A DNA stretch of 23,165 bases from a virus: positions 1 through 23,165 of the IMG/VR virus record IMGVR_UViG_3300042731_002549; one strand, 5' to 3'. Under the pieces are notes generated by a model. The model was given only the letters and a program-made list of their open reading frames with translations. It was not told where the DNA came from and did not search any database. A program made the position numbers and the translations under genes. Position 1 is the stretch's first letter. Each line of letters starts with the position of its first letter. Of this stretch, positions 6,657 through 18,605 are shown piece by piece.

Positions 6657-8015
6657 CTATTCGTACGTGACTAACATGCCGAGCCACAACTGCAGCGGGC
6701 AGATTTTAAGACAAAGGCGTTCGAACTCCGCGCGGCGTGTCGTGTCCACGCTGGCGGTCGTCCCGAACTTTTCACCCCCAATATACAGGAAGTATGGCCA
6801 CAGTGCAGGGTCCGTCGGCAGGTCGTACGTGCGGGGGCGGAACCTGTACCCGAAAATTTCGCCAGCTTGTGCCAGCGGTTCGCCAGCTTGTGCCAGCGGT
6901 TCGCCTGCCTCGACGCCTGCCGTGAGTACTTTCGTGACCTTGTTCACCAGCGGAAAGCCGACCGGCGTTATGGCCTGCCCAGCTTGTGCCAGCGGTTCGC
7001 CTGCCTGTGCCAGCGGTTCGCCTGCCTCGACGTAGTACACAACATCCTGCGAGTCGTCGGCAAGCAACAGCAACGGGTTGCGGGGCGTCAGGTTGGGGGG
7101 TGGCGTATATTTCGGGTTAGGCAAGGGGGAAATGAGGGTCGCGGGGCTTTCTTCAGATTTACCAAAATATGCGGCCTGGACATAAACATCAGTGCCGATT
7201 GTGCCTGTAACCCCGTCCGCATCTCTTATAATAAGGTCACAGCCTATGTCGTCCTCATCACTGGCTAGCGTAAAAGAGTAGCAAACCAACACCCATCCGT
7301 CTGGCAGTTCAGTGTAAGTATAATTATCACCATCACCATCGGTTATATTTCTTACGAAGCCGGAGAGGAAACCGCCTGCCAGTGTGTTAACACGCCAATA
7401 TGTGGACACAGGGCCGCTACTTGCTTGTTTTAATAGCGCGCAAGCGTATATAGTCTCGCCAGCTAAGGCATTAAACCTAGACGTGCTTAGGGAAAATTTA
7501 GCGAATCCGGTGTTTGTTGTTATTTCAAAAAGACCATAATCTGGAGCGCCTGAAGGGTTCTCCCCTGTTATCGTGGTAATCTCCCCAAACCCCGCGACCC
7601 ACGCACTCGGATCAAACGGACTAGGCATGTAATTAGTGCCGGTGTACTCGATGGCTGTGCCCGGCAGGAACTCCGGCTCCCACCACTCGTGAACGTAAAC
7701 GTCGAACCCTGCCGCCTGCAGTGTGTCCTGTATGTATCGAGGCGACTGCCCGCCGGACGCCTTCCAAGCCGCCGAGAGACGGGCGAGCCGCGAGCCGGTG
7801 CCTAGCTTTTGCGTAAAGCCGAATTGCTCGTCCCACTCGTCAAGCGCGCGGGTCGATCCGACAAATAAATCGAAGTAAATCTCGCCGAGGTACTGCTCGA
7901 CGTTCTCCCACACCAGCGCAAGGCCGAGGAAAAACCGGCGCAGCGGCTTATCAGCTATAAGGGACCACGCCCTGCCGCGCGGCAACAGGTGCTTGTATAA
8001 CTTTAGATATTTCAC
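6657..8015 (-). CDS. Mu gp48-like (YmfQ/DUF2313) baseplate protein with inserted lectin-like domain
   Basis: A 452-residue protein, about twice the size expected for the family. Residues 1-118 match the YmfQ/gp48 N-terminus (KHLLPRGRAW, then a segment ending in GFDVYVHEWW). Residues about 130-295 are a foreign-looking beta-rich domain with ALAGETIYACALLKQ and YTELPDGWVLVCYSF, resembling jelly-roll carbohydrate-binding modules. After a linker carrying the repeat VEAGEPLAQAGEPLAQAG twice, the family C-terminus resumes (DLPTDPALWPYFLYIGG, LCLKICPLQLWLG). The inserted DNA is visibly AT-richer than its surroundings. The start is a GTG at 8015 overlapping the gp47-like stop (GTGTGA) with GGAGG upstream. 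It probably joins baseplate to fibre and may itself bind cell-surface glycans. Confidence 0.85.
   Translation of the reverse strand: MKYLKLYKHLLPRGRAWSLIADKPLRRFFLGLALVWENVEQYLGEIYFDLFVGSTRALDEWDEQFGFTQKLGTGSRLARLSAAWKASGGQSPRYIQDTLQAAGFDVYVHEWWEPEFLPGTAIEYTGTNYMPSPFDPSAWVAGFGEITTITGENPSGAPDYGLFEITTNTGFAKFSLSTSRFNALAGETIYACALLKQASSGPVSTYWRVNTLAGGFLSGFVRNITDGDGDNYTYTELPDGWVLVCYSFTLASDEDDIGCDLIIRDADGVTGTIGTDVYVQAAYFGKSEESPATLISPLPNPKYTPPPNLTPRNPLLLLADDSQDVVYYVEAGEPLAQAGEPLAQAGQAITPVGFPLVNKVTKVLTAGVEAGEPLAQAGEPLAQAGEIFGYRFRPRTYDLPTDPALWPYFLYIGGEKFGTTASVDTTRRAEFERLCLKICPLQLWLGMLVTYE
6861..7032. repeat. Two copies of a short tandem block in the gp48-like gene
   Basis: Two blocks 117 bp apart (about 6882-6915 and 6999-7032) share a nearly identical sequence ending in GCCTGCCTCGACG. 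Each block contains two tandem 21-bp units built around TGTGCCAGCGGTTCGC; the first pair (6861-6881 and 6882-6902) is identical. On the - strand they encode VEAGEPLAQAGEPLAQAG twice, separated by 21 residues. The spacing is in frame, so the array behaves as a protein-level repeat, not a CRISPR. Confidence 0.9.
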
Positions 8016-10612: not shown

Positions 10613-11808
10613 GGTAGCCTCGCAGGTACTCCCCCCGCGAACGACTCAGGCAGGACAAGGACGAGGGTCGCTACGTCTTGTCTGCGGAACGTCACGGAGC
10701 GGATCAAAAAATTGTATGGTTGGTAAATCATAGCACCGGGCGCGGTCACGGTCACGGTGTCCCCTGGTTCCCACAGGCCGCCCGCTTCGTTGCGCCACGT
10801 TGACACCTCGACGGAATACTCGACGGAGCTGGCCAGCATACGGCCGAACGCCGCCTCGGTGGCGGCTTGGAGTTCCCCGGCAGCTAGGTCCGGCAGGTCG
10901 ACGGTTTTGGGTCTCATAATATTACGCGCAAAAGGGTTTTTAACTGTTGACTGCTGCCCCCCTTCGTTGCCGACGTCGGCGGGTTCGATGCCGGTCACGT
11001 CGCTGTAGTACGCCTGCGGGTTGAACTGCGGCGCGGCGGATAACATCGGAGACGATCCTGCGGTCAACCGAGCAACGGGCACCGACGCCGCAGGCTTGCG
11101 GAACACCAGCGCACCGGCTGTCGTGTTGCCCACTACAAGGCCCCGCTGTTTTGCCAGCTTTATCAGAAACGACAGCACCGTGTCCGTCGGGCGTACCTCG
11201 ACTTGGTCGAAAGTGGCACCCGCACTGCTCTCGAATATTACGGGGACGCCGAAGGGGGTGGCGAGTTGGGTGGCGATCAGCGCCAAGTCTAACCCGTTGA
11301 ACGTCAACGGGAACGCCGAAGCGGGTGGCGAGCAGTCCGACAGCACGCCCGGCAGGGCGTAACCCGCGGCGGCTATGGTGCGCGGCGTGCCGAATTGAGG
11401 TGTCGGCGTCAACTGCGTGCCAGTGAAAAGCGGCGCCCCTCCGACCGTAATCACAACAGGGGCAAAAGAGAAAGGCGCGAACGTCTCCCGGAACCCCGGC
11501 TCGTCGGGCTCGAACGGCCCTGTCAACTCGTAGGTGTCTAAACTGTCTAGGCTGCGGGTCACAGTGACCGTCGACCACCTAGAATAGGCCGCGCCGTTTA
11601 TCAGGACGGCCACCTCGTTGCGCTCCGACGCCGACGTGCCGATGGGCTGGCGGTTGCCTTGCGCTGGTACGCGAAGGGTCAGCCCTGCAGGCATAGGCTC
11701 CGGCGTGCCGGGGTTGGCGGACCGCAACAGCGCCGCGTCAGTCGCTACGCCGTAGACGTTGCGCGATACTGTCTCGAACGTGTCGCCGTCGCGGGTCGTG
11801 TAGCTCAT
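10603..11808 (-). CDS. Mu gp44-like baseplate hub protein with N-terminal LysM-like segment
   Basis: A 401-residue hub component. The N-terminus (YTTRDGDTFETVSRNVYG ... GLTLRVP) looks like a LysM domain, followed by the hub body (NEVAVLINGAAYSRWSTVTV, RPTDTVLSFLIKLAKQRG) typical of the gpP/gp44 family related to T4 gp27. The ATG overlaps the preceding stop by four bases. It would form the trimeric ring on which the gp45-like spike sits. An added N-terminal LysM-like segment is common in hub or hub-cap proteins and helps join tube to hub; a peptidoglycan-binding role is not implied. Confidence 0.9.
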   Translation of the reverse strand: MSYTTRDGDTFETVSRNVYGVATDAALLRSANPGTPEPMPAGLTLRVPAQGNRQPIGTSASERNEVAVLINGAAYSRWSTVTVTRSLDSLDTYELTGPFEPDEPGFRETFAPFSFAPVVITVGGAPLFTGTQLTPTPQFGTPRTIAAAGYALPGVLSDCSPPASAFPLTFNGLDLALIATQLATPFGVPVIFESSAGATFDQVEVRPTDTVLSFLIKLAKQRGLVVGNTTAGALVFRKPAASVPVARLTAGSSPMLSAAPQFNPQAYYSDVTGIEPADVGNEGGQQSTVKNPFARNIMRPKTVDLPDLAAGELQAATEAAFGRMLASSVEYSVEVSTWRNEAGGLWEPGDTVTVTAPGAMIYQPYNFLIRSVTFRRQDVATLVLVLPESFAGGVPARLPWQ

Positions 11809-13043
11809 ACGTAGTACACCACCGTGCGCCCTGCAGGTATCTCGAGAATTTCGTCACCTGTTAGGCTGTTTGAATTTATGAAAAAGTCCAGCCGGTCGTC
11901 GACGCTGCCGTATAGCTCGGCAACCAGGTCGATGATAGAACGGGAGCGCGTCAGTGTGAGGCGCTGCTCGCGCTTTAAACTAAAAGACAGGTCAACCGCG
12001 AACCCAGCGGCGGTCGCAACGGCGTCCTGTAGGCGTTGGTAGGCGTCTCCGGTGTCTATGCTGCCCAACGCCGGGTAGTTCGCGTCGCGCCATGCGACGA
12101 CAGCGTCGAACGCCGACAGGACGTCGTCCGCTGCAGCCAGCGCGTCATTCTGCGTCTCGAACTCGCTGGTCACAATAGACAGCGCCATGGCGGCGACGGC
12201 GGCGGTCGCATTGACCTCGCCGCCCTTGAAGGCGTTAAGCGCTAAATTATCAAGGCCGGGGCTCGCCGTCGGTGCGCCGGACAGGGACCGCGCGAGGTTG
12301 CCGTACGCGTCAAGGCGAGCCGCGGCACCCCCTGCGATCTGCGCGGGCAATTGCGAAAGGCGCTGCGCTTGGAACGCAAGCGTCAGCGGCTTGCCCACTA
12401 GGACGTCGATGCCGGTATCAATGGACGCCTTCACAGCGTCATACTGCGAGAACACGTCGGCTTGTTGCTCTGCCACTTCTGACAGTGCGCCGTCGACCGT
12501 GGCTATAAAATTTTTAAACTGGTTAGCGAACGTCACACCCTCTGACACGGTGGCAACGTTGAGGCCGTCGGCGAAGTCCGCGGCGCTTGCGTCGTTGAAA
12601 GCTGCCACGCTTGCGACTATCGCGTCGGCGGGGTTGGCCACCCCGTCAGGGTACACGACGCCGGTCGTCTCGTAGAACGTCACCGCGACGACTGCTTGAT
12701 TCGCACCGCTTTTCAGGCGGTCGGTTCTGTCTACGGACCCGACAGGCACCACGTCGATTTGCCCGTATATCGGGTGCGTCAGTAGCCCCGCCCCACGCTC
12801 CGTCAGTGCTTGCTCGAAAGCGGTGGCGGCGATGTCGTAGTCGTCACCCCAAAATATCGCCTGGATAGGGTATCGGCGGCCGGTGCTGCCGAGGCTTTGG
12901 ACGTACGTGCCCTCGCCGTCTGGATACTCGAAAGCGGAGTTTTTAAAGTCTTGTGACCGGGACACGTCCTCGAAGTCGAAAGGGTGCGTCGAACCGCTGG
13001 GCGCGTCATACTGCGCGGACCGTATTCTGTCTTGCCAACTCAT
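11805..13043 (-). CDS. Mu gp43-like (DNA circularisation protein N family) tail protein
   Basis: A 412-residue protein beginning MSWQDRIRSAQYDAPSGSTH and FEYPDGEGTYVQSLGSTG, the start of the 'DNA circularisation N-terminal domain' family to which Mu gpN belongs. The family name is historical; the protein is a tail/baseplate component analogous to tube-to-hub adaptors. The middle is Ala-rich and helical, and the C-terminus (RSIIDLVAELYGSVDDRLDF) resembles a LysM-like tail. The start codon overlaps the tape measure stop (TAATGA), and the stop overlaps the gp44-like start. Confidence 0.88.
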   Translation of the reverse strand: MSWQDRIRSAQYDAPSGSTHPFDFEDVSRSQDFKNSAFEYPDGEGTYVQSLGSTGRRYPIQAIFWGDDYDIAATAFEQALTERGAGLLTHPIYGQIDVVPVGSVDRTDRLKSGANQAVVAVTFYETTGVVYPDGVANPADAIVASVAAFNDASAADFADGLNVATVSEGVTFANQFKNFIATVDGALSEVAEQQADVFSQYDAVKASIDTGIDVLVGKPLTLAFQAQRLSQLPAQIAGGAAARLDAYGNLARSLSGAPTASPGLDNLALNAFKGGEVNATAAVAAMALSIVTSEFETQNDALAAADDVLSAFDAVVAWRDANYPALGSIDTGDAYQRLQDAVATAAGFAVDLSFSLKREQRLTLTRSRSIIDLVAELYGSVDDRLDFFINSNSLTGDEILEIPAGRTVVYYV

Positions 13044-14593
13044 TAAAAGGCCCCCGATGATTCAAGGCGGATAGCTGCCGCCGTGTTCTTGTCTTGTTGT
13101 AACTCGGCGCGGCCGGTCTCGTCGCGGATCGTCAGCTCGGCGGAGCTGGTCGTGCGGCGTTCCTCGATGCTGCGTGCTGTTTGTTCGGCGGCAGTGATCA
13201 CCTGCGGGGTGTTTTGGCCTGCGCCCGTCCCGTCGGTTACTTCGACGGACGCTTTGCCCCCGAGTAAGCTGCCCGCCGCTCCTGCGATTGCCCCGATGCC
13301 GTCTTTTATCATTTTAAATGGCGCGAGAATCTTGTCCAGCATGCCCGACACGAACTCGACGCCCGAAGCGGTGGCGCTTTTTATGCTCTCCCACACGCCT
13401 GACATGGTCGCGGCGACGCTGTCCCAATTCGCAGCGAGCGCGATGCCCCCTGCGATCAGCAAGCCGATGGCGGCGACGATCAGGCCGATGGGGTTGGCTG
13501 TCAGTGCGAGGTTGAACGCGAGGACGACGAACCGCAGGGCCTTAAACAGCCCCACCGCGAGCCAGCCGGTCGCGACGAGTACTTTGCCCGCGATGGCCCA
13601 CGCGAACGTGACCACCTTGGCGACGAGCATCACGGTATTAAACGCGAGGGTCGCCACTTTCAAGGCGATCACCATGGCCAGCCAACCCCCTAACACCTTA
13701 ACGAGCCCGAGTGCGACTTGCGACAGACTGTCGGCGTTGTCGGTTATAAATTGGATTCCCTCTGCGAGGCGCTGGGAAATTAGCTTGCGGTTTTCTACGA
13801 TCCACCCGCGCGTCGCTTTCGCTAGGTTCGTCAGCTCTGGCGCGAGAGGTGAGACCGCATCGGCGGTCAGTCCGAAAATAGACCGTTTCAAGCTGTCCAC
13901 GCTGTCGTTGTACGCCTCGAGGACTTGCGCCTGCTGCATGGTTATGACGCCGTTTTGGCGCTGCTCTTTACGTAGACGCGCAATGGCGTCGGCGCTGTTG
14001 TCTGATATGTTGGCAAGTTTTAGGCCCGCACGGCTAAACGCTGCCGACGCGAGGGCGGCACGGTCCGACGCGTTGGTCGTCTCGCGCATTTTGTTGATTA
14101 GTATCTCGAAAGCTTCGGAGCTGCTGCCCGCGCTGGTGATTTGGTCGAGCAAGGCGGTGTCCGTCTTTTTTAACAACGTAACGAGGGCGCCGGAGCCTGC
14201 ACGCGCTTCGCCTAGTCGCTTCGTAAATGCGCCGAGGCTGGATTCAAACAGTTTTGTGTCGACGCCGCTCTGCGATGCGACGAAGCCCCACTCCTGCAGG
14301 TCCTCGATGGGGAAGTCTATGCGCCGGGAAGTCTTTGCGAGGTTGTCGGCCGCGTCGGCCACTTTGTTCAATGCGCGGACGCCTATGCCCGCCCCGACGG
14401 CTAGTGCGCCACCTGCGACGGCACCTGTGCGCATTAGCCCCGCGTTGACGTTACCGACTGCGCGGTTCGTGCGGCGGAGGCCACGCTCTAGTCCTTGGTT
14501 GAAGCGGCGGACGCTCTGCCCCATTTTACTAACTGGGGCGGTTATTTTATCCACTGCGCGGAACACCGCGTCGACTGAAAAACGACTAGCCAT
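13043..14593 (-). CDS. Tape measure protein
   Basis: A 516-residue protein with the expected plan: N-terminal basic helical region (SVRRFNQGLERGLRRTNRAV), extended Ala-rich helices, a hydrophobic block around residues 290-400 with repeated membrane-like segments, and a charged C-terminus. It sets tail length and is ejected with DNA; at about 0.15 nm per residue it would give a tail near 77 nm, short for a myovirus (inference). The ATG at 14593 lies eight bases inside the end of the frameshifted chaperone extension, the usual arrangement. The hydrophobic block may insert into the host inner membrane during ejection. Confidence 0.93.
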   Translation of the reverse strand: MASRFSVDAVFRAVDKITAPVSKMGQSVRRFNQGLERGLRRTNRAVGNVNAGLMRTGAVAGGALAVGAGIGVRALNKVADAADNLAKTSRRIDFPIEDLQEWGFVASQSGVDTKLFESSLGAFTKRLGEARAGSGALVTLLKKTDTALLDQITSAGSSSEAFEILINKMRETTNASDRAALASAAFSRAGLKLANISDNSADAIARLRKEQRQNGVITMQQAQVLEAYNDSVDSLKRSIFGLTADAVSPLAPELTNLAKATRGWIVENRKLISQRLAEGIQFITDNADSLSQVALGLVKVLGGWLAMVIALKVATLAFNTVMLVAKVVTFAWAIAGKVLVATGWLAVGLFKALRFVVLAFNLALTANPIGLIVAAIGLLIAGGIALAANWDSVAATMSGVWESIKSATASGVEFVSGMLDKILAPFKMIKDGIGAIAGAAGSLLGGKASVEVTDGTGAGQNTPQVITAAEQTARSIEERRTTSSAELTIRDETGRAELQQDKNTAAAIRLESSGAF

Positions 14594-15202
14594 TTGACTT
14601 CGTGTGCTCCTGTAGTGTGCGGCGAACTCCGTTATAAAAGAAACGCAGCTCGCGCGTCGTAAGTGTCCGCACGTCCGGCAATGCCTGATAACTTTGCGAT
14701 ACTTGCAAAACCATCTCGGGGTAGACGTTGGCGCGGACGTGCGCCTTGTGCCAGTAGTCTACACCAAGCCGGACCAGCGGGGTACTTACGACCCCATAAA
14801 AAGGGTGGCCACTGCCTGCGCGAACTTAAAGTCCGGCCCCGACATGCTGCCGAACAGTTTCACATTCTTTTTGGTAATCGATGCCATAAAAGCAAAAAGC
14901 TTTCGGACGGTCTCTTTGTCTTTGTACGCGTCCATCGCCATATAATCCACGCCTTTCGGTACGTGAAAGGTTACGTCGGCGCAATCACCGATGGCGGTTT
15001 TTAGTTGGTAGTTCAAGCTTCCGTCATCGCCCACGTTAGCGCGGCCCGCTTCTATGGCGGAAACGACGCGGCCCGATAACTTCTCGAAGTCGACACGGCT
15101 GTCCTCGTCCATTTTTGACAGGTCCGTCTCGATGTCCCACGCTTCTGCGAAAGCTTCGAATTCTGATAACGCCACCTCTCGGGCGACTGCCTGTTTTGTC
15201 AT
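14586..15202 (-). CDS. Tail assembly chaperone, -1 frameshifted long form (gpGT-like, 205 aa)
   Basis: The short chaperone is read to codon 135 (TTT at 14800-14798). A one-base backward slip then gives an uninterrupted 70-residue extension starting YGVVSTPLVRLGVDYWHK, including the segments YPEMVLQVSQSYQALPD and RELRFFYNGVRRTLQEH, and ending at TAG 14588-14586 inside the tape measure start. The extension has no plausible start of its own near its 5' end and otherwise leaves a 192-bp gap. The last -1 frame stop upstream lies near 14825, so the slip must occur within the last dozen codons of the short form, which include the run of five Ts. Conserved frameshifting in chaperone genes just before the tape measure is well established for tailed phages. 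Not tested experimentally here. Confidence 0.85.
14786..15202 (-). CDS. Tail assembly chaperone, short form (gpG-like, Mu gp41 position, 138 aa)
   Basis: A soluble acidic protein lying between tail tube and tape measure, where tail assembly chaperones sit. It starts MTKQAVAREVALSEFEAF; the ATG at 15202 follows AAAGGTGAG, while a longer in-frame start at 15256 reads through the intergenic stem-loop and is rejected. The body includes FEKLSGRVVSAIEAGR and YMAMDAYKDKETVRKLFAFM. Chaperones of this class coat the tape measure while the tube polymerises and are absent from mature virions. The C-terminus (KFAQAVATLFMGS) covers the slippery run that makes the long form. Confidence 0.88.
   Translation of the reverse strand: MTKQAVAREVALSEFEAFAEAWDIETDLSKMDEDSRVDFEKLSGRVVSAIEAGRANVGDDGSLNYQLKTAIGDCADVTFHVPKGVDYMAMDAYKDKETVRKLFAFMASITKKNVKLFGSMSGPDFKFAQAVATLFMGS
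14798..14802 (-). other. Putative -1 ribosomal frameshift site in the chaperone gene
   Basis: The zero-frame codons are ACC CTT TTT ATG GGG TCG TAA. The run of five Ts allows the tRNA on TTT (14800-14798) to re-pair on TTT after a one-base slip, with ATG in the A site. This is not a textbook X XXY YYZ heptamer, because CTT would re-pair poorly on CCT, so single-tRNA slippage is the simplest reading. A second possibility four codons before the stop is slippage on G GGG. Confidence 0.7.
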
Positions 15203-15223
15203 GTTGCTCACCTTTTGAATGGG

Positions 15224-15276
15224 TCGACGCGCCCCGCTGGGGGCGGGCATGGGCAAGGCGAGTAGCCGCGCGTCGA
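15224..15276 (-). promoter_or_regulatory. Large intergenic stem-loop between tail tube and chaperone genes
   Basis: A perfect 9-bp inverted repeat (TCGACGCGC at 15224-15232 and GCGCGTCGA at 15268-15276) brackets a second, inner hairpin (GCCCC at 15231-15235 with GGGGC at 15240-15244). It fills most of the only sizeable gap (92 bp) in the tail operon and lies just before the chaperone ribosome binding site. There is no T-run on the - strand after it, so it is probably not an intrinsic terminator. It may set mRNA stability or the ratio of the abundant tube to the less needed chaperone. Confidence 0.5.
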
Positions 15277-15294
15277 TAGTGCCTTTTTAGTTCG

Positions 15295-15678
15295 TTACTG
15301 CTTGCGCAGTTTACCCGGCCCCATGACGTTGACGGACGCCGTCGCGTTGGCGCTGCTGTACTGCGTCTCGCCGGTCAACTGGCCCGTGCCGCCGTACACT
15401 GCGGCGCTCGCGTAGGTGATCACGACGGGGAAATAATCGCCGCGATCTTGCAAGTCCTGCAGGTACTCGTGGTCGCCTCGGTCGTCGTCGACTACCAGGG
15501 TTAGACCGTCGAGCTGTAGGGGTACTCGGGTTTTAATTAATCGCGCGGTGCCGTCGCCGTTGGACTGCACCTCGTTCTCGAAGCCGCCCAGCTTGCGGTT
15601 GACTTCTGCGTCCTGCGCGACGGCGAACTCTCGACCGTCTAGCGCAATGCTTTCTATTGGACCACCGACTGCTGCCAT
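15295..15678 (-). CDS. Tail tube protein (Mu gpM-like)
   Basis: A 127-residue protein directly after the sheath gene, with GGPIESIALDGREFAVAQDA, RKLGGFENEVQSNGDGTARL and LQDLQDRGDYFPVVIT, matching the Mu-type tail tube family. The tube polymerises inside the sheath and conducts DNA. ATG at 15678 with AGGAG nine bases upstream. The length is as expected for the family. A 92-bp spacer with a stem-loop follows, in contrast to the overlapping junctions elsewhere in the operon, consistent with a need for high expression. Confidence 0.93.
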   Translation of the reverse strand: MAAVGGPIESIALDGREFAVAQDAEVNRKLGGFENEVQSNGDGTARLIKTRVPLQLDGLTLVVDDDRGDHEYLQDLQDRGDYFPVVITYASAAVYGGTGQLTGETQYSSANATASVNVMGPGKLRKQ

Positions 15679-15694
15679 GTTGATCGCTCCTATT

Positions 15695-17191
15695 TTACGC
15701 CACTATTGCGGCTTGTCCGAAAAAGAAACCGAAGTTTAAGTCGGTGCTGATAATGTTCGCATTACCCGAAAGCTTAAACGTCGCAGCGATGTCTAACCGC
15801 TTCGGGTTGCTCTCGTTAATGTTGGCGCGCGTGTTGTCCTTCGCGAAGTCTGCGTCGGAGATGATCGCGTTCAGCGCCAGCGAGTCCCAAAGCGCGCCGA
15901 GCGCACCGGTCGCCATTTTTGGCTTTTTGGCCGTGGCGTTGACAGTGGGCTGGTCGTCAGGAATCAACGGCGCACCGTCCCACGCGGCCGTGTTGAATAT
16001 CAGGTCGACGTTAAAAATTATGTTTTGCAATTTGACGATGTCGTTCACGTAGCGATACGCCGGAAGCGGGTCGCCTGCAGGGTGGTAAAACGTCACAGTG
16101 TCGGCAAGGTTCACCACGTTGTCCACGACGTCGACGGTCGAGCTGCCTGCTTTAACGGCTTGGTCTCGCTGCGGGTATGTCCACTGCTGCGCGTCGGTGC
16201 CTGGCGTGATACCTGTCAAGCGCTGGCGGGCGTAATCTTGCGGCGCGTTGTTGTTCGCTATTGGCGCGATGCGTGCGACGGCGCGAGCGGCTACCACAAA
16301 CGGTAGATTCGCCGAGCCGGGTGCGACTAGCTGCGAGTTGGTGCGGTCTGTTGCACGCGCGTCAGTGACGGCCGTCGCGGTCGTGACGTCCGCCTCGGTG
16401 TTGCCCACGAAAGCGACCATCGGTTTGCGTGTCAACGCGCCCCACCGGCCTTCGCCGAACGCCGCGAACTTGTCAAGCGTGGCGGTGTCGGTGCTCTCCA
16501 TAGCGTTAATGAATAACGTCTCCCATACGTTGCCGACTTGGTCGAGCGCGTCTTGCACGTCGGGGTTTGTGGCACCGCCGGTTGGCTGCGTGATGGCGTA
16601 CGTGACACCCTTGTCGGTTGCGCCTACCACCTCGACGGTGATCGCGTTACCGCTTTCGCCACCCCACTTCGCGTCGATGGCGACGTCGGTGGTGTTGTCT
16701 GTTGCTACGACTGGCAGCTCTAGTGTGCTGTTAATCGCTGCGGTAATCGCTGCGGTGATGTCTGCCACGGCTGCGCCCGCTTCAACGGTAAACGCCGCCG
16801 ACGGGATACCATTCACGACGATGTTGTAATTTGACAGCTCGGCAGTCGTCACGCTCGGAGTTATGTCGCCCGAAGCGGTAATCGCTGCGCCGTCGTCCTC
16901 GAGAGGGTACACGGTCACGGGTACGGAGCCGACGCCGTCGCCGTTTATAGGCAGCAACTCGCGGGCGATTAAATGGATCGGGGAGCCGAAGCCGTACAGG
17001 CTGGCAGCTTCGCCCGCGCTGGTTACGCGTCGCTTTGTCGTGTCGTACGTTGCGGCGCTCGCGCCTTGTGCTACGACTGCGATGCGTTGTGGGAGCGCAA
17101 CCGCACCCCCTGCACGCAGGTCTACAAATTCGGTTTTAATGCCGAGCACGCGCGCAACGGCGGAGAGATCGACTGCGGTACTTGTTGCCAT
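15695..17191 (-). CDS. Contractile tail sheath protein (Mu gpL-like)
   Basis: A 498-residue sheath protein, full length for the Mu-type family. Diagnostic segments are the N-terminal VARVLGIKTEFVDLRAGGAV, RRVTSAGEAASLYGFGSP, and the C-terminal part with LWDSLALNAIISDADFAKDN and SNPKRLDIAATFKLSGNA, the conserved core that makes intersubunit contacts. Its presence defines the phage as a myovirus. ATG at 17191 follows GGAGG by seven bases. The middle region (residues ~110-240) is Ala/Thr/Val-rich and probably forms the exposed outer domains. Confidence 0.95.
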   Translation of the reverse strand: MATSTAVDLSAVARVLGIKTEFVDLRAGGAVALPQRIAVVAQGASAATYDTTKRRVTSAGEAASLYGFGSPIHLIARELLPINGDGVGSVPVTVYPLEDDGAAITASGDITPSVTTAELSNYNIVVNGIPSAAFTVEAGAAVADITAAITAAINSTLELPVVATDNTTDVAIDAKWGGESGNAITVEVVGATDKGVTYAITQPTGGATNPDVQDALDQVGNVWETLFINAMESTDTATLDKFAAFGEGRWGALTRKPMVAFVGNTEADVTTATAVTDARATDRTNSQLVAPGSANLPFVVAARAVARIAPIANNNAPQDYARQRLTGITPGTDAQQWTYPQRDQAVKAGSSTVDVVDNVVNLADTVTFYHPAGDPLPAYRYVNDIVKLQNIIFNVDLIFNTAAWDGAPLIPDDQPTVNATAKKPKMATGALGALWDSLALNAIISDADFAKDNTRANINESNPKRLDIAATFKLSGNANIISTDLNFGFFFGQAAIVA

Positions 17192-18269: not shown

Positions 18270-18605
18270 TTAACCTTTGTTTTCGATGATGTGGCCGGAC
18301 TTCACAAAGCTTTTTATTGCCTCGTCTCCGCCTGCCAACATGTCGGCGGTCACTTCGTCGGCGGTGTCGCCTGACAAAATACCTTTCTTGCTTGTTATCG
18401 CCTTGCCTGGCGCGACAGTGTACTCCGCGGCGGCTGGCTCTGCTGGCGCTGGCTCTGCTGGCGCTGGCTCTGCTGGCGCTGGCTCTGCTGGCTCTGTGCG
18501 CAGCTCTTTAAGCTTTTCAGTCATTTGCGCGTTACTCATTCCCGAGACGTCGGTCTCTGGCGACACTGCGGCAATGGCTTCGATCAATTCTTTATTACTT
18601 GGCAT
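18270..18605 (-). CDS. FI-like protein with Ala-Glu-Pro repeat linker (111 aa)
   Basis: A 111-residue three-part protein. Residues 1-36 (NKELIEAIAAVSPETDVSGM) look like a small helix-extended-helix (HeH/SAP-like) module. Residues 37-60 are a tandem repeat of AEPAP. Residues 61-111 (APGKAITSKKGILSGDTADE ... FVKSGHIIENKG) resemble a short beta motif seen in other phage head proteins. It sits directly after the major capsid gene, where lambda has gpFI, which helps terminase find proheads; that role is inference from position. ATG follows AGGTGAG. The repeat is encoded by near-identical 15-bp units, so length may vary between relatives. Confidence 0.75.
   Translation of the reverse strand: MPSNKELIEAIAAVSPETDVSGMSNAQMTEKLKELRTEPAEPAPAEPAPAEPAPAEPAAAEYTVAPGKAITSKKGILSGDTADEVTADMLAGGDEAIKSFVKSGHIIENKG
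18436..18495. repeat. 15-bp tandem repeat encoding AEPAP
   Basis: Three identical 15-bp units GGCTCTGCTGGCGCT at 18436-18450, 18451-18465 and 18466-18480 are followed by a fourth unit (18481-18495) with changes at its end. Read on the - strand they give Ala-Glu-Pro-Ala-Pro in series within the FI-like protein. The near identity at DNA level suggests recent slippage expansion. Confidence 0.95.

Follow-up and report, generated by a model that had tools for sequence, protein, structure and literature searches.

The tail assembly chaperone (TAC) gene of the analyzed viral DNA very probably ends in a programmed −1 ribosomal frameshift, as judged from sequence comparison. The gene is located on the minus strand of the window, i.e. 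the whole stretch of 23,165 nucleotides under analysis (IMG/VR record IMGVR_UViG_3300042731_002549). Tail chaperones with frameshifted endings are an established feature of phages, P2 and lambda being examples. A hidden −1 frame product had been proposed as a chaperone extension in a preliminary description of this DNA; the observation was confirmed, and the reading is supported by the homologues described below.

In the proposed mechanism, most ribosomes would synthesize the 138-aa chaperone and terminate at the TAA codon at 14788. A minority would pause near CTT TTT ATG, where tRNA-Phe on UUU would slip back one base to the overlapping UUU (a U_UUU tetramer). Translation would then proceed in the −1 frame (TAT GGG GTC GTA...) and add 70 residues before reaching the TAG that lies within the tape measure gene; the predicted fusion comprises approximately 205 aa (135 TAC residues plus 70). 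We infer a shift of low frequency that takes place as a single-tRNA step. If the roles are analogous to those of lambda gpG/gpGT and P2 gpE/gpE+E′, the tape measure would be coated by the chaperone part, and the extension, present on few copies, would bring in the tail tube protein. The ratio of the two products would then matter for tail assembly, and the fusion would connect the tube to the tape measure, as it does in lambda.

The chaperone locus and its overlapping reading frame

The genetic organization of the locus (sheath, tube, TAC, gap, tape measure) is presented in Table 1. The matches of the neighboring genes to PHROGs place the TAC gene between those for the tube protein and the tape measure, which is the position of frameshifted chaperones. 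The TAC stop is separated from the tape measure ATG (14593) by 192 bases (14785–14594). The extension ORF consists of this gap plus 21 bases around it, and reads Y-GVVSTPLVRLGVDYWHK...KSNG.

Table 1. Features of the tail module in the window.
Feature	Position	Strand	Evidence and remarks
Tail sheath protein (contractile tail)	15695..17191	−	PHROG 165, E 9.2e-94
Tail tube protein, upstream of TAC	15295..15678	−	PHROG 4699, E 1.2e-38
TAC, zero-frame product, 138 aa	14786..15202	−	ATG 15202, TAA 14788–14786; PHROG 4648 (function unknown), E 3.7e-25
Stretch with both frames open, 37 nt	14789..14825	−	−1 frame bounded by a stop directly 5′, zero frame by TAA directly 3′
Inferred shift site CTT TTT, followed by ATG 14797–14795	14798..14803	−	U_UUU tetramer at 14801–14798
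−1 frame extension, 70 residues + TAG	14586..14798	−	Homologues; TAG at 14588–14586
Tail tape measure gene	13043..14593	−	PHROG 8125 (tail length tape measure), E 8.8e-41
DNA circularisation/baseplate hub protein (Mu N-like), downstream of tape measure	11805..13043	−	PF07157, E 2e-15; PHROG 184, E 2.8e-51

The coordinates given in the preliminary description (TAC stop, gap, tape measure start, run of five T at 14802–14798, and TAG overlapping the 5′ end of the tape measure gene by eight bases) were all correct. The same applies to the 70 residues in the −1 frame, counted from the TAT codon at 14798, and to the slip window of about a dozen codons, since the −1 frame opens 37 nt 5′ of the TAC stop.

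The TAC of the window matched the Pfam family PF10109 (Phage_TAC_7; E/41/14) with 15.4 bits (E 0.019), below the curated cut-off of 25 bits, and it was not filed as a member. Ten of 17 members of the TAC family matched PF10109 at E ≤ 0.1 (best 8.7e-7), which points to distant kinship only with the family that includes P2 E and Mu 41. An AF2 model of the TAC had a confident fold (pLDDT 94), and a PDB fold search with this model found nothing. The extension was modeled as a beta hairpin followed by two helices (pLDDT 82). Its sequence had no match in Pfam or PHROG, and its model none in a PDB fold search. The best matches among viral structures, A0A2I7R0A8 (68 aa) and A0A0K1LKA8 (42 aa), agree in length with two mis-annotated ORFs at this position in Vibrio relatives and may be these ORFs.

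Several other features of the window were recorded. A strong hairpin (approximately −29.5 kcal/mol as RNA) is present in the tube/TAC intergenic region (15203–15294, minus strand), just before the ribosome binding site of the TAC gene. The minus strand also encodes a protein with AGEPLAQ repeat units near its C-terminus (VEAGEPLAQAGEPLAQAG, several copies; 6657–8015) and a small protein with AEPAP/EPAPAEPA repeats (18270–18605). No match was obtained in a plasmid search or in an Rfam scan of the window.

The extension is protein-coding and stays in the −1 frame throughout the TAC family

Separate tblastn searches with the TAC and with the extension identified largely the same phages, of Shewanella, Acinetobacter, Pseudoalteromonas, Aeromonas, Oceanospirillum and many Vibrio. 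The matches of the extension included Shewanella phage SppYZU01 (E 7e-15) and Acinetobacter phage Scuro (E 2e-12). In each of the 20 loci fetched, the extension was offset from the TAC frame by −1. A further 162 loci were obtained by scanning IMG/VR and genome contigs with an alignment of tube proteins and a three-member alignment of extensions, which were used instead of broad alignments, as the divergence within the latter was too high for scanning the collections. With profile HMMs of the TAC and the extension, the −1 offset was seen in every one of the 177 loci (of 177) that hold both parts intact, approximately 20 isolated phages among them. The loci with a single part (four with the TAC only and four with the extension only) were all cut by contig ends. 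One IMG/VR contig, 3300037126, equals the window over the compared stretch and does not constitute independent evidence.

According to the preliminary description, a lack of homologues carrying the extension would have spoken against the proposed product. The outcome was the opposite: every untruncated homologue has the extension in the −1 frame and under purifying selection. In 18 independent close pairs, substitutions located 3′ of the zero-frame stop were distributed over codon positions 1, 2 and 3 of the −1 frame as 93, 53 and 252. Since the differences fall mostly at third positions, the extension is protein-coding. The consensus FFGLVRTPLVRxG...VYxEMLLQICRDYxGLPDxRTLxAxEIRFFYxGLRxELKxHT runs unbroken across the zero-frame stop, and the conserved residues G.V..PLVR.G span it. 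The family has a conserved downstream ORF in a shifted frame, which overlaps the chaperone gene and lacks its own initiation site.

The open frame itself could have arisen by chance, without any function, as in 432 of 5,000 dinucleotide shuffles (8.6%) no stop interrupted 65 codons of the −1 frame. For this reason, an open frame alone is weak evidence, and the significance of the extension derives from the homologues that carry it. The homology between phages with the frame preserved (E values as low as 7e-15), the third-position bias and the complete frame consistency refute this explanation, and its probability is practically nil.

The absence of any ATG-started gene in the gap had also been noted. 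This statement needs refinement, as an in-frame ATG is present at 14714 (extension codon 29), but it would begin an ORF of just 42 residues and is not preceded by a Shine-Dalgarno sequence. It was therefore considered whether the 70 codons represent a separate small gene, or a remnant of one, with its own start and not joined to the chaperone. This ATG aligns with a Met present in all 67 members of one alignment (A6), and in several phage records a portion of the region is listed as an ORF in its own right (VP16T orf15T, AeroV_348, H188). However, the Met is absent from the VP16, SFCi1 and AeroV groups, and the conserved G.V..PLVR.G lies upstream of it; no Shine-Dalgarno-led start precedes the conserved part in the extension frame. 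In addition, a separate gene would not need the nucleotide-level selection on CTT TTT described below. A separate gene is, on these grounds, very improbable, and extension of the chaperone is the preferred reading.

The homologues add a protein domain that accompanies the chaperone in far more than one hundred viral contigs from the environment and in approximately 20 isolates. This domain is absent from Pfam and PHROGs; public annotations mostly omit it or designate internal fragments of it as separate genes.

Two further observations concern the relatives. In those from Vibrio (L008, L011, L012, L016–L018, L021 and L023), an opposite-strand block of small genes, including HTH or NinH-like ones, is located between the tube and TAC genes. 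The same tail module is also present in contigs of bacterial MAGs (L104, Nitrospinota; L105, Shimia), so relatives may be prophages of these groups or phages co-binned with them.

The shift site and its variants

The zero frame at the end of the TAC gene reads GCC ACC CTT TTT ATG GGG TCG TAA. As already described, this sequence contains no X_XXY_YYZ heptamer. It does contain a Z_ZZN-type slippery sequence, T_TTT, in which three identical bases across the codon boundary allow −1 re-pairing of one tRNA. Runs of five or more T occur 23 times on the minus strand of the window.

Conservation of the site was examined in 54 independent members, obtained by clustering at 85% identity, with one derived clade (clade 2, described below) left out. 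All 54 have xxT TTT at the same place, and where the codon preceding TTT encodes Leu it is CTT in 44 of 44 cases, compared with 20.7% of the Leu codons in the same genes (binomial p ~8e-31). These two results identify U_UUU as the shared, invariant minimal site, and it is under selection at the nucleotide level.

In most relatives the next codon is TTG, TTA or TTC, which results in a P2-type heptamer, U_UUU_UUN. Only the tetramer is present in the window, Scuro, L059 and L097 (next codon ATG), in the VP16 group (ATT), and in L048 and L098 (CTG). In a tree constructed without the columns of the site itself, the window was placed among heptamer members (L122, L085, L101 and L146), and about seven changes between heptamer and tetramer were counted, at least three of them forced by well-supported branches. 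The site of L122, CTT TTT TTG GGG TCG TAA, differs from that of the window by one base of the next codon (TTG vs. ATG). Given this nesting among relatives with canonical sites, the ATG of the window is one base away from a P2-type heptamer.

The fusion could also originate from RNA polymerase slippage at the T-run, whereby some mRNAs would contain more or fewer U than the gene encodes and would yield the fusion by ordinary translation. Relatives carry T7 to T8 at this place, but the run in the window is of five T only, and efficient transcriptional slippage in bacteria occurs at longer runs. Furthermore, such slippage is independent of frame and would not demand the constant phase of xxT TTT seen in all 54 independent members, which makes it extremely unlikely as the source of the fusion.

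A second tetramer, G_GGG (ATG GGG TCG), is located two codons later in the overlap of the window, which makes the assignment of the exact slip codon provisional. A shift there instead of at U_UUU would also yield the −1 frame, and relative L105 has G_GGG (CTG GGG TAG) and no T-run. However, the fourth G is lost in other tetramer-type relatives (GGT in Scuro, L059 and L097; ATT TCT in the VP16 group), which keep T_TTT, and relatives with GGT or GGC at this position have no G_GGG tetramer. Use of G_GGG is accordingly improbable, and U_UUU is preferred.

The tetramers U_UUC and U_UUU have been measured in E. coli, where they shift with a stimulator present, and they are used by IS elements; U_UUU needed a pseudoknot to shift above background (PMC4066793). 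Tail chaperones without a classical heptamer are also known (PMC10885494). The site is thus unusual for a tail chaperone, but it does not represent a new kind. The preliminary description had left a choice between a single-tRNA slip and a new variant; the former is the better option, whereas the latter does not hold for a tetramer already measured.

No stable stem was found 3′ of the site in the window (z between −0.2 and +2.1; stems only), i.e. no stimulatory structure of the kind associated with efficient use of Z_ZZN sites, and no Shine-Dalgarno-like stimulator was seen upstream of it. A family-wide downstream hairpin, suggested by Thr3-Gly3 pairing seen by eye, was rejected, as it showed no covariation (z 0.05) and the window lacks the stem.

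In clade 2, a well-supported sister clade (38 tree rows; L033, L034, L046, L053, L060, L104 and others), the site is replaced by G CTT TTA ATG GAY TAG. The extension is kept in the −1 frame, and what is left of the site is U_UUA alone, a motif that performs poorly in E. coli. Four members (L065, 1714–1745; L080, 2075–2112; L068, 2850–2880; L075, 2866–2896) have no Z_ZZN within the eight codons that precede the TAC stop; their extensions still carry GLV.TPLVR in the −1 frame, conserved across the stop. The poor-site clade and the few loci without a site indicate that U_UUU is not universally required.

Members of a sub-clade (L053, 2903–2952; also L071, L052, L075, L064, L068, L159 and L092) have in common a stem-loop of two parts directly after the TAC stop. 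In the alignment, 89% of the cells are paired and four cells are changed on both sides; the covariation score was reached in 13 of 500 shuffles, and the region is also coding. With this modest covariation, the stem-loop is a possible frameshift stimulator. A wider scenario, which we regard as rather doubtful, is that the heptamer repeatedly decayed to a tetramer (in the window, Scuro, the VP16 group and others), and in one clade to CTT TTA ATG GAY TAG or, in some of its loci, to no recognizable site, with the −1 product still made via an undescribed mechanism that may rely on the downstream stem-loop. The natural series of sites (heptamer, tetramer, U_UUA and no site) in genes that are alike in other respects makes the minimum for −1 shifting in phages directly testable.

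Comparison with known frameshifting systems

The system of the window is of the broad kind of frameshifted tail chaperones and would work like P2 E/E′, with an extension family of its own. The preliminary description had pointed to Mu-like phages, but the closest parallel is P2 (−1 shift, T6G, eight-base overlap). The extension showed no detectable similarity to Mu 41′. Comparisons by hmmsearch and hhalign of the extension with the single sequences of P2 E′, Mu 41′ and lambda T gave no significant match.

P2 shares with the window the order sheath–tube–chaperone–tape measure and the −1 frame, and E′ has neither a ribosome binding site nor a start of its own. E′ overlaps gene T by eight bases, as the extension overlaps the tape measure gene, and reaches 37 nt back into E, as in the window (PMC3931495). 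The P2 site is GGT TTT TTG, and a U_UUU_UUG-type heptamer is present in most relatives of the window, whereas the window itself has no heptamer (U_UUU_AUG).

With regard to Mu gp41, the order of the tail module is otherwise nearest to the Mu-like one, with an N-like DNA circularisation protein downstream; however, the shift in Mu is −2, at a G-rich site, and that proposed here is −1. In lambda the heptamer is GGGAAAG, and the T domain is longer than the extension and unrelated to it. The likeness to lambda gpG/gpGT concerns the functional model, i.e. a short chaperone and a rare −1 extension before the tape measure (PMC5009743).

The Z_ZZN sites of the IS1/IS3 families (U_UUU, U_UUC) represent the same minimal single-tRNA motif (PMC4066793), but they occur in a transposase context and usually with a strong RNA stimulator, of which none was found in the window. 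Non-heptamer motifs of tail chaperones are also distinguished by PRFect ("five" and "twofive"), and the sequence CCTTTTT of the window fits "twofive", going by the name of the motif (PMC10885494). Those motifs were inferred from annotations of Actinobacteria phages, whereas the site of the window is backed by cross-family conservation in phages of Gram-negative bacteria.
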